From the IMG/VR virus record IMGVR_UViG_3300030333_004317, positions 1-22,326 of that record: 22,326 nucleotides of DNA; one strand, 5' to 3'. The notes below the pieces were generated by a model. The model was not told where the DNA came from. It did not search any database and saw only the letters and a list, made by a program, of their open reading frames with translations. The position numbers were made by a program, and so were the translations under genes. The stretch comes from a virus. Positions 606 to 9,149 of this stretch are shown piece by piece; within the stretch, counting starts at the first letter, position 1, and every line of letters begins with the position of its first letter.

Positions 606-3600
606 ATGGGAAAAACATTTAACGCATCAGTGGATTGGTTGGGGATGGTGGAAAATCCGGATCAAGACGTAAATCCTTCTGTTAACGGAGAGAAAGCACA
701 AACAGGAATAGAGTTTGAAGCACCAAAAAGAGATGGTGAAAGAATTAATTCTGATGGAAGTGAATCTACACATATAATGAAGACAGAAACAATTGATGGT
801 ATTAATTGGGTTTCTTTTCCTACATTATTTCAAAATGAAGATGGAACTTGGGATAATACATATGAGTTGATGATAAAAAAGAATCCAGATAATTGGAAGC
901 CTGCAATGTTAGAAGCTAAAAGACGTGGTGAATTAATCCACTTCGGTCCTAATAAAAAAGAAGCTTTGGAATATGGTAAAGGTTCGTGGAAACCTAAAGC
1001 ACAAATAGGGGATGAAATAAAACCTTATGTAGCAGTTCAAGATAATACATATGTTGATATACCACCACCTCCTCCAGCACCAACAAAAGTTATAGATCCA
1101 TTTCCCCATGGTACAATTTCACAAGCTCCTCCTGAAAAAGCATGGTATAAAAAATTACTTAATGTTGTAGCTCACCCAATGGAAGCTTTTGGTAGAAGTA
1201 TTCATAATCAAGATTGGTGGACAGGTGACTTAGGACAAGGATTACCAATGAGTCCACAACATAGTACAAATATTGGGGATGGTTTTGATATGGTTAATAC
1301 ATTCTTTAATCCTGCTAGTTGGGTGGAGGATATATCTGATTCTGAATCTATAACCGAAGGTGTTGTTAATACGGCAATGTTAATTCCTATAGTTAGAGGT
1401 GGTAAAGTCGTTGGATATACAAATAAGGCAAATAAAAGTAAACCTATATTTCATAAAGGATCTTCATACATAGAGGATCCAAATTCACTATATAGAGTAG
1501 TAAATGTTCCACCTGGAGGTACAAGTGTAGATGAATTAGTTAAAGCTGCAGAGTATGGTACGACAATACCAAAGGTAACAACTAGTGGAAGACGTGCAGG
1601 ATATTCAAAAATACAAAGAGAAACTCCTTTTGATGTATTAAATACCACTAGTAATCAAGGATGGATTTTAGGTAAAGGGACAAATGATCCATATAATCTA
1701 ATGAATTTATATGGAGGAAAAAATCCTTATGTAATAAAAATGGGTAGAGGAAACCCTCTTGTAGGACCAGAAAGTCTTAAAACTATTAATCAAAGAACAG
1801 ATATTTTAAGAGACTTTAGTTTTCCATATACTCAAAATGTAGGAAAATGGAATCCAGCTACAGGTCAATATGATGTACCTATAGAACTGGGTGCAGGTGT
1901 ATTTACAACAGTTGGAAAAAGTGCAGATGATCTTGCTAAGATAATGCCAGGATCTATTGTTAATCCTAATATGTTAAGTAGAGGTAACAATAATATTACT
2001 ACAATATTTGGTCCAAAAGGTTTTCAAGTTAGACAACCGCAAGAAGTTTTACCAATGGATGAATATATAAAATATATGAAGAATAATCCTAATTTTAAAT
2101 TTCAAGAAGGTGGTCCTACAACTGAAAGAGAAAAATATATTCAATTTGCATTAGATACTGAAAGTGGTTATCATTATATAAGAAATAAAGACTCAGCAGT
2201 AAAAAAATTAGGAGCTGATGGTAAATGGGACGGTAAAACGTATTATAAAATTTATGAAGACGGTAAATATTATCCACATTATGTAGGAGATGAAAAGCGT
2301 GCAACAATAGGTCATGGTCATGCTCCTGTAGATAGAGATATATTTGAAGAATATAAAGAGGGTATTACTGAAACTCAAGCGTTAGAATTATTAGGAAAAG
2401 ATATAGATGAAAAACTTAGATTAAGTGAAATATATTATAATTCAAGATTTGGTGATGGTAAATGGGATGATTTAACAGAGTCAGAACAATTTATGTTAAA
2501 TGACTATACATTTAATGTAAGAGGTGGTTTTCATAAAACATTTAGAAATTTTGCTAAAGCAATACATGATAAAGATCATAAATTAGCAAAAAAAGAATAT
2601 AAAAGAGCATTAGGTGAAAGAAATGAAATTTTCATGGAAAGGTATCTTAAACCATGGATGGATATTCAAATAGAAAGAACAACAGTAGCACCTCCATTAG
2701 AAGATATGCCTTTACCAATTGGTACTTTTCCAACAGATAGTGAAGGTAATCCTCAATCTATGAGTACTAATCCTAATGAACCAAAGAAAGAAACAAGTTG
2801 GTGGAGAGGTGAAGAAGGTTGGATACCAGATGAGTTAGAATTACCTTGGTTTATGGATGGTGCAGGTATAAATTCTAGAGGAAATACTCCATCTTCAGTG
2901 ACAGATATTCCTGCAACAGCAGATGGATCAAGAGCAGAAAACGCAACTATGAGTAGATCTGCAATGGACCCAATGCCTTCTTTAAATAATGATCTTACAG
3001 TAAATGATAATCTTGCATTAGATAATACTATAGCTGATTTAAGTGAAGAAACAAATATACCACAGGTAAAGTATGGAGGTCAATATATGTGGGGACTTGA
3101 TTTAAGATCTACAAAAGCACAAGCAGGAAAAGAGGTAAAATCAGATGATATATATGCTAATGATAGATATTCACAAAGTGCTACTAAGTACAAAAAAATG
3201 TTACCTAAGTATCAATCACAAGGTCAATTACCAAAAGCTCAGTTTGGTAGACATTCTATAATGAGTGGTAATGCACATGGTTTACGTCCTGAAGGATCTA
3301 CAGGAGTATTAGGAGATTTTTATGATAAATCAGGTATAAGTGATGGTAAATATAAGTGGTTACTAGGAGATACAAAAACAGGAGGTGCAGCAGGAGCATT
3401 TGTATCTAATCTTTTAGATATTGCAAATATTCCAAGTAACTTAATGGCTGAAGCAACAGAATACTTTGGTGGAAGAGGAGATAAAGAGTTTAATTTCTTA
3501 GATGCTATGCCAGGTTTTTCAGGAAATTTTTCTTTTACTAACATGTATGGTGAGCCAACAAAAACTGTATCAGGAACTGCTGATGATCAAGGGAATCCTC

Positions 3601-4310
3601 TTGTAGATAATTTCTGGGGCGCTTTAGCAACAGATATATTTACAGATCCTACTTCTTATGTAGGTTTAGGTTTAGTAACTAAAGGTACTAAATTACCAAA
3701 TGCAATAGGAAAAACTACTCGTAATGTAAAAAAAGGTCTTGGTAATGCAAAAACAAATATTAATAATGCTATGGGAGGAACCAAAATGACTAGTAAAGGT
3801 TTACAAATATGGGATGGAGAAGACTGGGTATTATCTAATAAACAACAAGCACTTAATACTATTAAAAAAATAATTGAACAGAAAAAAATACTTCAAAATC
3901 AAGCTGCTAGTAAAGTAAAAGGTGCACAACAAAAATTATACAATCTTGAAAAAAATAAAGCAAAGTTAATTTCTGATTTTGAAAAATTAGGTTTTGATAC
4001 AAAAGAGTTACAAAGTGAAGCTTGGTTAGATATGTTTACAAAAAAAGTTAAAATGGATAGAAGTGGAAAATTTCAACAAAATATAGTAGATGATATGACA
4101 GTTGAATTTTGGGAATTAAGTGATTTTCTAGATAATGTAGGTGGTGATAAATTTGATGATCTTTTAGATGCAATAAATAAAGGAGCAAAACTTGATGATG
4201 AATTAATAAAAAAACATTTAAGTAAAAGTGCATATGAAAGATTTAAAAATATAAAAAATACTCTTGATCCTAGTAGACAATATGATGAAGGAAGTACAAG
4301 AATAAAATAA
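606..4310 (+). CDS. Large modular virion protein with GH24 lysozyme domain
   Basis: 1234 residues. N-terminal region (about 45-130) resembles a domain found in phage internal virion proteins (DGSESTHIM, then RRGELIHFG and YGKGSWK). Residues 507-690 match GH24/T4 lysozyme: catalytic-type E519, D552 or D562, ATIGHGH at 566-572, then an ITETQALELLGKDI helix and a long helical C-lobe. The Glu-to-Thr segment is longer than in T4 lysozyme, so it carries an insertion. PKAQxG-like motifs at 130-135, 498-503, 822-825, 867-873 and 876-881 sit between domains. A module with LLNVVAHP (184-191) and FFNPASWV (233-240) recurs as LLDIANIP (936-943) and IFTDPTSYV (1011-1019). The C-terminus (about 1060-1234) is charged and helical. 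It probably degrades peptidoglycan during genome entry. Residues 290-490 are an unrecognised domain. The ATG at 606 is used; M14 (645) is an alternative. The lysozyme call is strong, while the virion location is inferred. Confidence 0.85.
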   Translation: MGKTFNASVDWLGMVENPDQDVNPSVNGEKAQTGIEFEAPKRDGERINSDGSESTHIMKTETIDGINWVSFPTLFQNEDGTWDNTYELMIKKNPDNWKPAMLEAKRRGELIHFGPNKKEALEYGKGSWKPKAQIGDEIKPYVAVQDNTYVDIPPPPPAPTKVIDPFPHGTISQAPPEKAWYKKLLNVVAHPMEAFGRSIHNQDWWTGDLGQGLPMSPQHSTNIGDGFDMVNTFFNPASWVEDISDSESITEGVVNTAMLIPIVRGGKVVGYTNKANKSKPIFHKGSSYIEDPNSLYRVVNVPPGGTSVDELVKAAEYGTTIPKVTTSGRRAGYSKIQRETPFDVLNTTSNQGWILGKGTNDPYNLMNLYGGKNPYVIKMGRGNPLVGPESLKTINQRTDILRDFSFPYTQNVGKWNPATGQYDVPIELGAGVFTTVGKSADDLAKIMPGSIVNPNMLSRGNNNITTIFGPKGFQVRQPQEVLPMDEYIKYMKNNPNFKFQEGGPTTEREKYIQFALDTESGYHYIRNKDSAVKKLGADGKWDGKTYYKIYEDGKYYPHYVGDEKRATIGHGHAPVDRDIFEEYKEGITETQALELLGKDIDEKLRLSEIYYNSRFGDGKWDDLTESEQFMLNDYTFNVRGGFHKTFRNFAKAIHDKDHKLAKKEYKRALGERNEIFMERYLKPWMDIQIERTTVAPPLEDMPLPIGTFPTDSEGNPQSMSTNPNEPKKETSWWRGEEGWIPDELELPWFMDGAGINSRGNTPSSVTDIPATADGSRAENATMSRSAMDPMPSLNNDLTVNDNLALDNTIADLSEETNIPQVKYGGQYMWGLDLRSTKAQAGKEVKSDDIYANDRYSQSATKYKKMLPKYQSQGQLPKAQFGRHSIMSGNAHGLRPEGSTGVLGDFYDKSGISDGKYKWLLGDTKTGGAAGAFVSNLLDIANIPSNLMAEATEYFGGRGDKEFNFLDAMPGFSGNFSFTNMYGEPTKTVSGTADDQGNPLVDNFWGALATDIFTDPTSYVGLGLVTKGTKLPNAIGKTTRNVKKGLGNAKTNINNAMGGTKMTSKGLQIWDGEDWVLSNKQQALNTIKKIIEQKKILQNQAASKVKGAQQKLYNLEKNKAKLISDFEKLGFDTKELQSEAWLDMFTKKVKMDRSGKFQQNIVDDMTVEFWELSDFLDNVGGDKFDDLLDAINKGAKLDDELIKKHLSKSAYERFKNIKNTLDPSRQYDEGSTRIK

Positions 4311-8873: not shown

Positions 8874-9149
8874 ATGGAAAAAGTAATACCAATTGGAAAC
8901 AAAGTTTTAGTTAAACAAGTAAAAGCTAAAGAAACTTATGGTGACACAGGAATATTTATACCTGATGCACAACAAACACAAGAATTAAAAGGAATTGTAA
9001 TATCTGTAGGTGATACAGTAGAAGGTATACAAGAAGGAGATCTTATTCAATATGGTGAATATGCACAGCCTGTATCTATGTCACATGATGGTGAACCTCA
9101 TCTTTTAATTAATAAACAAGATATATTAGCTATTATTATAAGTGTATAA
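8874..9149 (+). CDS. groES: GroES-type co-chaperonin
   Basis: 91 residues, close to the ~95 of GroES. The Cpn10 barrel is recognisable: IPIGNKVLVKQ at the start, a mobile-loop region with TGIFIPDA (about 26-33), KGIVISVGD (about 39-47), EGDLIQYGEYA (about 54-64) and the closing strand LLINKQDILAIII. It caps GroEL to fold proteins. No groEL gene is visible, so it presumably works with the host GroEL, as T4 gp31 does for the major capsid protein. Its position directly before the terminase, portal and capsid genes fits that role. Its last bases overlap the terminase start by 8. The leader (AAATAAAAATCAAA) has no Shine-Dalgarno. Confidence 0.9.
   Translation: MEKVIPIGNKVLVKQVKAKETYGDTGIFIPDAQQTQELKGIVISVGDTVEGIQEGDLIQYGEYAQPVSMSHDGEPHLLINKQDILAIIISV

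Follow-up and report, generated by a model that had tools for sequence, protein, structure and literature searches.

Polyvalent proteins are large multidomain polypeptides in which peptidoglycan-cutting, zincin, kinase-like and further effector domains are combined in an ever-changing order; they are believed to accompany the DNA into the host and perhaps to be processed (Iyer et al. 2017; PMC5512222). Here, we describe a protein of comparable build, P0001 (1234 amino acids, aa), together with the short junction motif that punctuates it. P0001 is encoded by an open reading frame (ORF) with an ATG start at 606..4310 on the + strand of a 22,326-bp viral fragment from IMG/VR (IMGVR_UViG_3300030333_004317), the whole of which is hereinafter called the window. 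The motif, whose consensus in related viruses is [K/R/E]-x-G-G-[S/Q/E/D]-L-P-K-A-Q-x-G, is real, widespread and apparently undescribed as a short linear motif of crAss-like phage cargo, and apparently represents a variant of the polyvalent-protein and capsid-targeting-propeptide themes. It is probably a recognition tag read by the virus, most likely for the cutting or loading of injected proteins.

As in the polyvalent proteins, unrelated effector domains occur in variable architectures in the relatives of P0001, with LysM, YkuD, SET, APH-like and HExxH modules and clear module exchange. Within P0001 itself only a lysozyme is recognized, by its fold; Pfam and PHROG reveal no known polyvalent domain in it and it has no HExxH motif. 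What sets the present proteins apart from the polyvalent proteins is the shared junction motif, which is new here, and the presence of several modules without a Pfam or PHROG match. Neither "linker" nor "crass" gave a match in a text search of that 2017 paper, and the literature searched makes no relevant link of polyvalent proteins to crAss phages.

The second theme is exemplified by phage T4, where a 10–19-residue N-terminal capsid-targeting sequence marks the unrelated cargo proteins IPI-III and Alt for the head and is then cut off (gp21 substrates; PMC9026906). A short N-terminal tag shared by several head or cargo proteins is likewise found here; however, the gp21 sites differ in sequence, T4 places no tag between fused modules, and an S78 protease was not detected in the 28 motif genomes searched. 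In the gp245-type maturation of SPN3US and phiKZ, one short cleavage motif recurs across many head and ejection proteins, mostly with N-terminal propeptides and in some cases with several sites (PMC10052503). That motif is a different one, and its cutting in SPN3US removes propeptides instead of separating effector modules. We found no published description of the present motif, and LPKAQ is not printed in a phage context in the papers searched.

Motif copies in P0001 and in related viruses

The initial annotation of P0001 had listed five short motifs, each of which lies at the residues given there: KPKAQIG (residues 129–135, 990..1010), KFQEGG (498–503, 2097..2114), VKYGG (821–825, 3066..3080), LPKYQSQG (866–873, 3201..3224) and LPKAQFG (875–881, 3228..3248), all on the + strand. 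Two further copies on that strand had been missed, KAQTG (30–34, 693..707) and KAQAG (837–841, 3114..3128). The pattern K[AYF]Q-x(1,2)-G is thus present six times in P0001 as against 0.09 expected (20,000 shuffles, none reaching six), and is not found in the 5,816 aa of the remaining window ORFs. Canonical copies stand only at residues 129, 866 and 875, whereas KFQEGG and KYGG retain the consensus of the relatives (KYGGQLQKAQNG, KFGGSLPEAQDG, PKYQDGGSLPKAQTG) in degraded or half form.

Comparison with other stretches of DNA (given L- or G-numbers here) places each copy. KAQTG aligns with linker-type sequence in L020, L053 and L062, residue 30 being the junction ahead of the first folded module, where relatives have QFQNGG, VYQEGG or PMAQYG. 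KPKAQIG has as its counterparts RKTGGQLPKAQYG, KKNGGSLPQAQYG and FQDGGQLMRAQYG in L091, L061 and L089, while the position of KFQEGG is occupied in relatives by KYGGQLQKAQNG and KFGGSLPEAQDG. VKYGG is conserved as a half motif in L002 and L004, KAQAG appears as KAKAG in relatives, and LPKYQSQG corresponds to PKYQDGGSLPKAQTG in L004; LPKAQFG is a canonical copy.

In the related viruses, the motif is sharper than in P0001, and four IMG/VR relatives show its full form between modules (KYGG-SLPKAQ-FG and similar). A back-translated GGxLPKAQxG pattern yielded at least 120 viral stretches, nearly all in frame and in large ORFs, and the IMG/VR contigs that carry the motif number more than 100; removal of redundancy left a set of 163 motif ORFs. 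Because these ORFs were collected using the motif, its behavior as a unit was tested only on instances outside the search seeds. At 72 such KAQ-x-G sites the preceding L is present in 61%, the preceding P in 64% and a G at -5 in 42%, and 34% of 140 such GG-x-L sites are followed by Q at the right place (7-fold enriched). Across three near-complete genomes, the motif is confined almost entirely to large cargo-type genes, with other matches at about the number expected by chance.

The window is itself crAss-like, with matches to Crass_capsid (E 9e-31) and to the PHROG portal (5e-89) and terminase (3e-60), and the crAss capsid family is present in 36 of 50 motif contigs tested. The earlier attribution of such motifs to Bacteroidota phages is, therefore, better narrowed to crAss-like phages, no host being known for any of these contigs. 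The motif is absent or nearly so in the cultured and gut crassviruses checked, and was not found in the portions examined of the human-gut records cr1_1, csAssE-Sib and MT835470. An origin in bacterial chromosomes was rejected, as a 257-Gb scan of bacterial and archaeal genomes (85,000 of them bacterial) gave 62 DNA matches with a plausible protein context only in L191. This contig (WLWP01000004.1), binned as a Pseudomonadales metagenome-assembled genome, has the canonical motif LKDGGALPKAQFGIPP in a 1139-aa ORF and may be a mis-binned viral contig.

Module junctions and selection on the peptide

When motif proteins are aligned locally with one another, 12.8% of the alignment ends are no more than 10 aa away from a motif, as against 3.5% for random positions (500 draws, maximum 5.3%), and 8.8% as against 3.4% are so when the motifs are masked. 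Direct module swaps point the same way, with modules at 78–88% identity adjoining different neighbors across the linker. Module 2 of P0001 (residues 136–497, 1011..2096, + strand) is 78–84% identical in L091, L061 and L089, which carry NLGGSLPKAQ where P0001 has KFQEGG and then continue with different sequence; the lysozyme module (residues ~505–693, 2118..2684, +) is 78–88% identical in L002, L004 and L075, where it stands behind different modules. Module 1 (residues 35–128, 708..989, +), with the signature ...FPTLFQ...FGxGSWK, recurs in L002, L020, L023, L034, L053, L062 and L133, and part of the C-terminal module (residues 882–1234, 3249..4307, +) is found again in L036 and L018, where YGGALPKAQDG precedes it. 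Together with the low-confidence flanks around folded modules in AlphaFold models, these observations bear out the placement of the motifs at domain borders that had been proposed from the sequence of P0001.

Several recognized domains are set off in this way. In L091 and L019 a linker precedes LysM and L,D-transpeptidase (YkuD) domains; in L103 a kinase-like (APH-like) domain (825–890) is bracketed by motifs at 715 and 996, and in L133 a SET domain (478–556) by motifs at 439 and 576. HExxH zincin modules are found in 25 of the 163 motif ORFs against 0.6 expected and are missing from P0001. SET domains are normally lysine methyltransferases; the one in L133 (Pfam E 2.6e-9), flanked by motif linkers, belongs to a cargo-locus phage protein encoded at L133:5423-11695 (= G006 25423-31695).

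The domains of P0001 had been called recognizable, which holds for the lysozyme fold and for a small recurrent folded domain at residues 56–127, the core of module 1 in the AlphaFold model. The rest is without a Pfam or PHROG match, as is the protein when searched whole; INPHARED tblastn likewise returned nothing with P0001 as the query and LysM-type matches only with a relative. The lysozyme module matches 7cn7 (T4 gp5 lysozyme) and 6xc0 in Foldseek with a probability of 0.99 at an E of only 0.012–0.035, and its hidden Markov model match to T4 lysozyme is weak (E 0.07). Its predicted local distance difference test (pLDDT) values are mostly 65–87, and it conserves a near-invariant Glu (TESG region) and an invariant Thr in ATIGHGH, whose correspondence to members of the catalytic Glu-Asp-Thr of T4-type lysozymes is putative. 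The fold is that of the T4-type lysozymes, including the gp5 tail lysozyme, with the difference that here the identity is ~20% and the domain is embedded between cargo linkers. The motif stretches around the lysozyme and the first domain have pLDDT <50 and lie outside the folded modules. The AlphaFold model of residues 1–500 was used for the first module only; it is poor beyond that, and we make no structural claim on module 2.

The Pro, Ala and Gln codons of the motif follow the background, the Leu and Lys codons are mildly biased (TTA 72% vs 55%, AAA 89% vs 78%), and DNA identity between motif copies is no higher within proteins (0.862) than between them (0.854). Hence, with Pro, Ala and Gln codons at background and no excess of DNA identity within proteins, selection acts on the peptide and not on the DNA. 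At homologous junctions, restricted to those found independently of the motif copy being compared, motif residues are 80% identical as against 60% for the flanks, with the motif higher in 20 of 22 comparisons that are not fully independent. Conservation above the folded flanks is the opposite of what is expected of a passive linker. This evolutionary evidence points to a short linear motif that has a function in virion cargo, and against a passive hinge.

N-terminal tags and the cargo protein C1

A second scan recovered many ORFs that begin with MK[I/V][R/K][I/V]...LPKAQxG, the motif falling within the first ~20 residues; overall, the tag occupies 41 N-terminal and 147 internal sites. The non-redundant N-tagged ORFs longer than 300 aa number 20, and most N-tagged ORFs of this length form one family with muzzle/cargo-block genes of G001, G006 and G012. 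In pairwise hhalign comparisons, the profile of this family matches phi4:1 gp040 with a probability of 94.6% (E 6e-8) and residues 425–541 of phiCrAss001 gp45, the cargo protein C1, with an E of 0.001 and a probability of only 20.7%, the best among the phiCrAss001 proteins tried. As both are single pairwise comparisons, a relationship of the N-tagged family to C1 is likely but not proven. The phi4:1 proteins gp040 and gp041, which have similar modules and contain KFQSGG and YAQAGG, respectively, are virion proteins by tandem mass spectrometry.

In the phiCrAss001 structure, gp45 is resolved by cryo-electron microscopy only in fragments (residues 214–245 and 425–552), with residues 425–552 at the portal and the N-terminal part in the tail barrel, and gp45-like cargo has been proposed to unfold during ejection (PMC10172136). 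Beyond the weak profile similarity, gp45 resembles the N-tagged family in its basic N-terminus, and it has F/Y-G-G-x-L half motifs at 208–212 and 426–430, at the start of both resolved segments. It differs in being without LPKAQ, the LPKAQ motif being lineage-specific.

An N-terminal tag is also present in a cultured phage, Leptolyngbya phage Lbo-JY46 (PP438436.1), whose portal is 34% identical to that of the window and which has one N-terminal LPKAQ tag: its tagged protein XAI97384 starts with MKIRIIGLPKAQIG, the tag stretch being MKIRIIGLPKAQIGMEE. The listed cyanobacterial host is surprising for a crAss-like relative, and a literature search found no paper mentioning this phage. Separately, L242, L243, L239, L224 and L258 encode small lysine-rich proteins (~100–300 aa) with GGAMKxFKKSLPKAQxG, some of which have a AALAPPYNKATAADRIAGAKKN-like C-terminal end.

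Processing, docking and other readings of the motif

The occurrence of the same peptide at protein starts and at module borders alike calls for a partner that would recognize it. The reading we favor, with just under an even chance of being correct as a whole, is that the element is recognized by a partner, most likely a protease, which releases the cargo modules. P0001 would then belong to a class of large crAss-like phage cargo proteins with a plug-and-play build, in which each module is led by [K/R/E]-x-G-G-x-L-P-K-A-Q-x-G, with MK[I/V][R/K][I/V]...LPKAQxG leading the stand-alone C1-related cargo. A protein of the virus (or host) would read the element during virion assembly or ejection, most likely as a protease cutting at or beside the LPKAQ-xG bond. 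Such cutting would free modules such as lysozyme, LysM/L,D-transpeptidase, zincin, kinase-like and SET domains from their polyprotein; single cargo proteins would lose a propeptide of some twelve residues, much as the T4 capsid-targeting sequence is trimmed off. By analogy with the T4 tags, the shared cut motif of giant phages and the suspected processing of polyvalent proteins, processing would fit best; the location of P0001 in the virion, the partner that reads the motif, the cut and the bond at which it falls are all inferred. The processing role suggested in the initial annotation is a candidate compatible with all observations.

Several points weigh against processing, above all that no dedicated protease emerged among the candidates searched. 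The S78 prohead protease was not found in 28 motif genomes (with positive controls, although divergent proteases would be missed), and the S77 search of motif genomes is uninformative as its positive control was silent. A JAB/JAMM protease cutting after GG, an idea drawn from gp76-gp77 of phiCrAss001, was rejected, being absent in 20 of 20 motif genomes tested. As both P0001 and the G001 modular protein are devoid of HExxH, the zincin modules embedded in other motif ORFs are excluded as a general enzyme. The putative metallopeptidase DUF2201_N is present in 21 of 28 motif genomes versus 0 of 5 reference crassviruses, a contrast confounded by lineage, and as the protease it is a lead only. To these are added the degenerate state of several P0001 copies and the location of the P0001 gene and the G001 modular gene near phoH-terminase, apart from the muzzle/cargo block. 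As for the DUF2201 protein itself, encoded at G001:6318-7475 and with counterparts in the 21 genomes, it combines the putative metallopeptidase with a VWA-like domain and has as its neighbor a conserved, MoxR-type-ATPase-looking gene without a Pfam match.

With the candidate enzyme as the weak point of processing, docking without cutting is a serious rival, if a somewhat unlikely one: the tag would bind a component of the virion (portal, tail barrel, muzzle or scaffold), so that every cargo module enters the particle and is kept ready for ejection. This accords with the N-terminal tag of C1-related proteins, the N-terminal part of C1 lying in the tail barrel of phiCrAss001, and with the failure to find a general protease (S78 in 28 and JAB in 20 motif genomes); moreover, a similar basic N-terminus, without LPKAQ, is retained in csAssE-Sib C1 and in gp45 (MKLRIIKNRPIFAPGG, MAKKKIKRRGKMPPNIFDTGG). 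Yet for docking a single tag per protein would do and exact placement at module borders would be unneeded, whereas internal copies are kept and conserved at many junctions. Those internal copies might alternatively be relics of gene fusion, leftover starts of once separate tagged genes with no present role, as suggested by the start-like Met retained in some internal tags, such as GGAMKRVKIHSLPKAQYG of L232, and by the identity of the N-terminal and internal tags (41 and 147 sites). We consider this improbable: leftovers should decay faster than folded domains, whereas the motif is conserved above its flanks in those 20 of 22 non-independent comparisons, and GG precedes the motif far more often than a relic start requires.

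More improbable still is the hinge that the initial annotation offered as its other option, whereby the motifs would allow a large protein to be unfolded for its passage through the tail. Their position in low-confidence stretches (pLDDT <50) outside the folded modules and the proposed unfolding of gp45-like cargo on ejection would suit it, but what matters for a hinge is its length and its Gly/Ser content, and an exact LPKAQ-x-G is not required. The hinge reading is also weakened by the 80% versus 60% identity of motif and flanks, and it leaves unexplained the copies close to the N-terminus of single proteins, which have no preceding domain to be hinged. A DNA recombination site, in which repeated linker DNA promotes module exchange, is in our estimate highly improbable: it draws on the exchange seen at linkers and the slight Leu/Lys codon bias (TTA 72% vs 55%, AAA 89% vs 78%), but Pro, Ala and Gln codons at background and DNA identity no higher within proteins point to selection on the peptide. 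As a primary role it is largely refuted by the codon data, although recombination may still profit from the motif.

A stronger proposal, which we regard as unlikely at present, is that one lineage of crAss-like phages uses GGxLPKAQxG as a universal tag on its ejected proteins, address and cut site in one, such that any enzyme module joined to the payload by recombination would automatically be loaded and released; this would amount to a modular delivery code served by an unrecognized viral protease or receptor. Crassviruses rank with the most abundant of known phages, and a motif marking cargo starts and module borders opens the question of how they load and release large protein cargo to direct test. 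It predicts at single-residue level where cutting or binding would occur, supplies a sequence rule for finding cargo proteins without known relatives, and divides unannotated proteins of several thousand residues into expressible, foldable units; if it is truly a tag, it would provide a ready-made signal to load foreign proteins into phage particles.

Two further genes of the window merit mention. The region 8874-9149 encodes a small protein that reads as GroES/Cpn10-like from its sequence and lies a few genes from the terminase, as in other crassviruses, and the protein encoded at 5756-6397 matches PHROG 3000, a family of unknown function (E 5e-32), with a weaker match to an endolysin PHROG.

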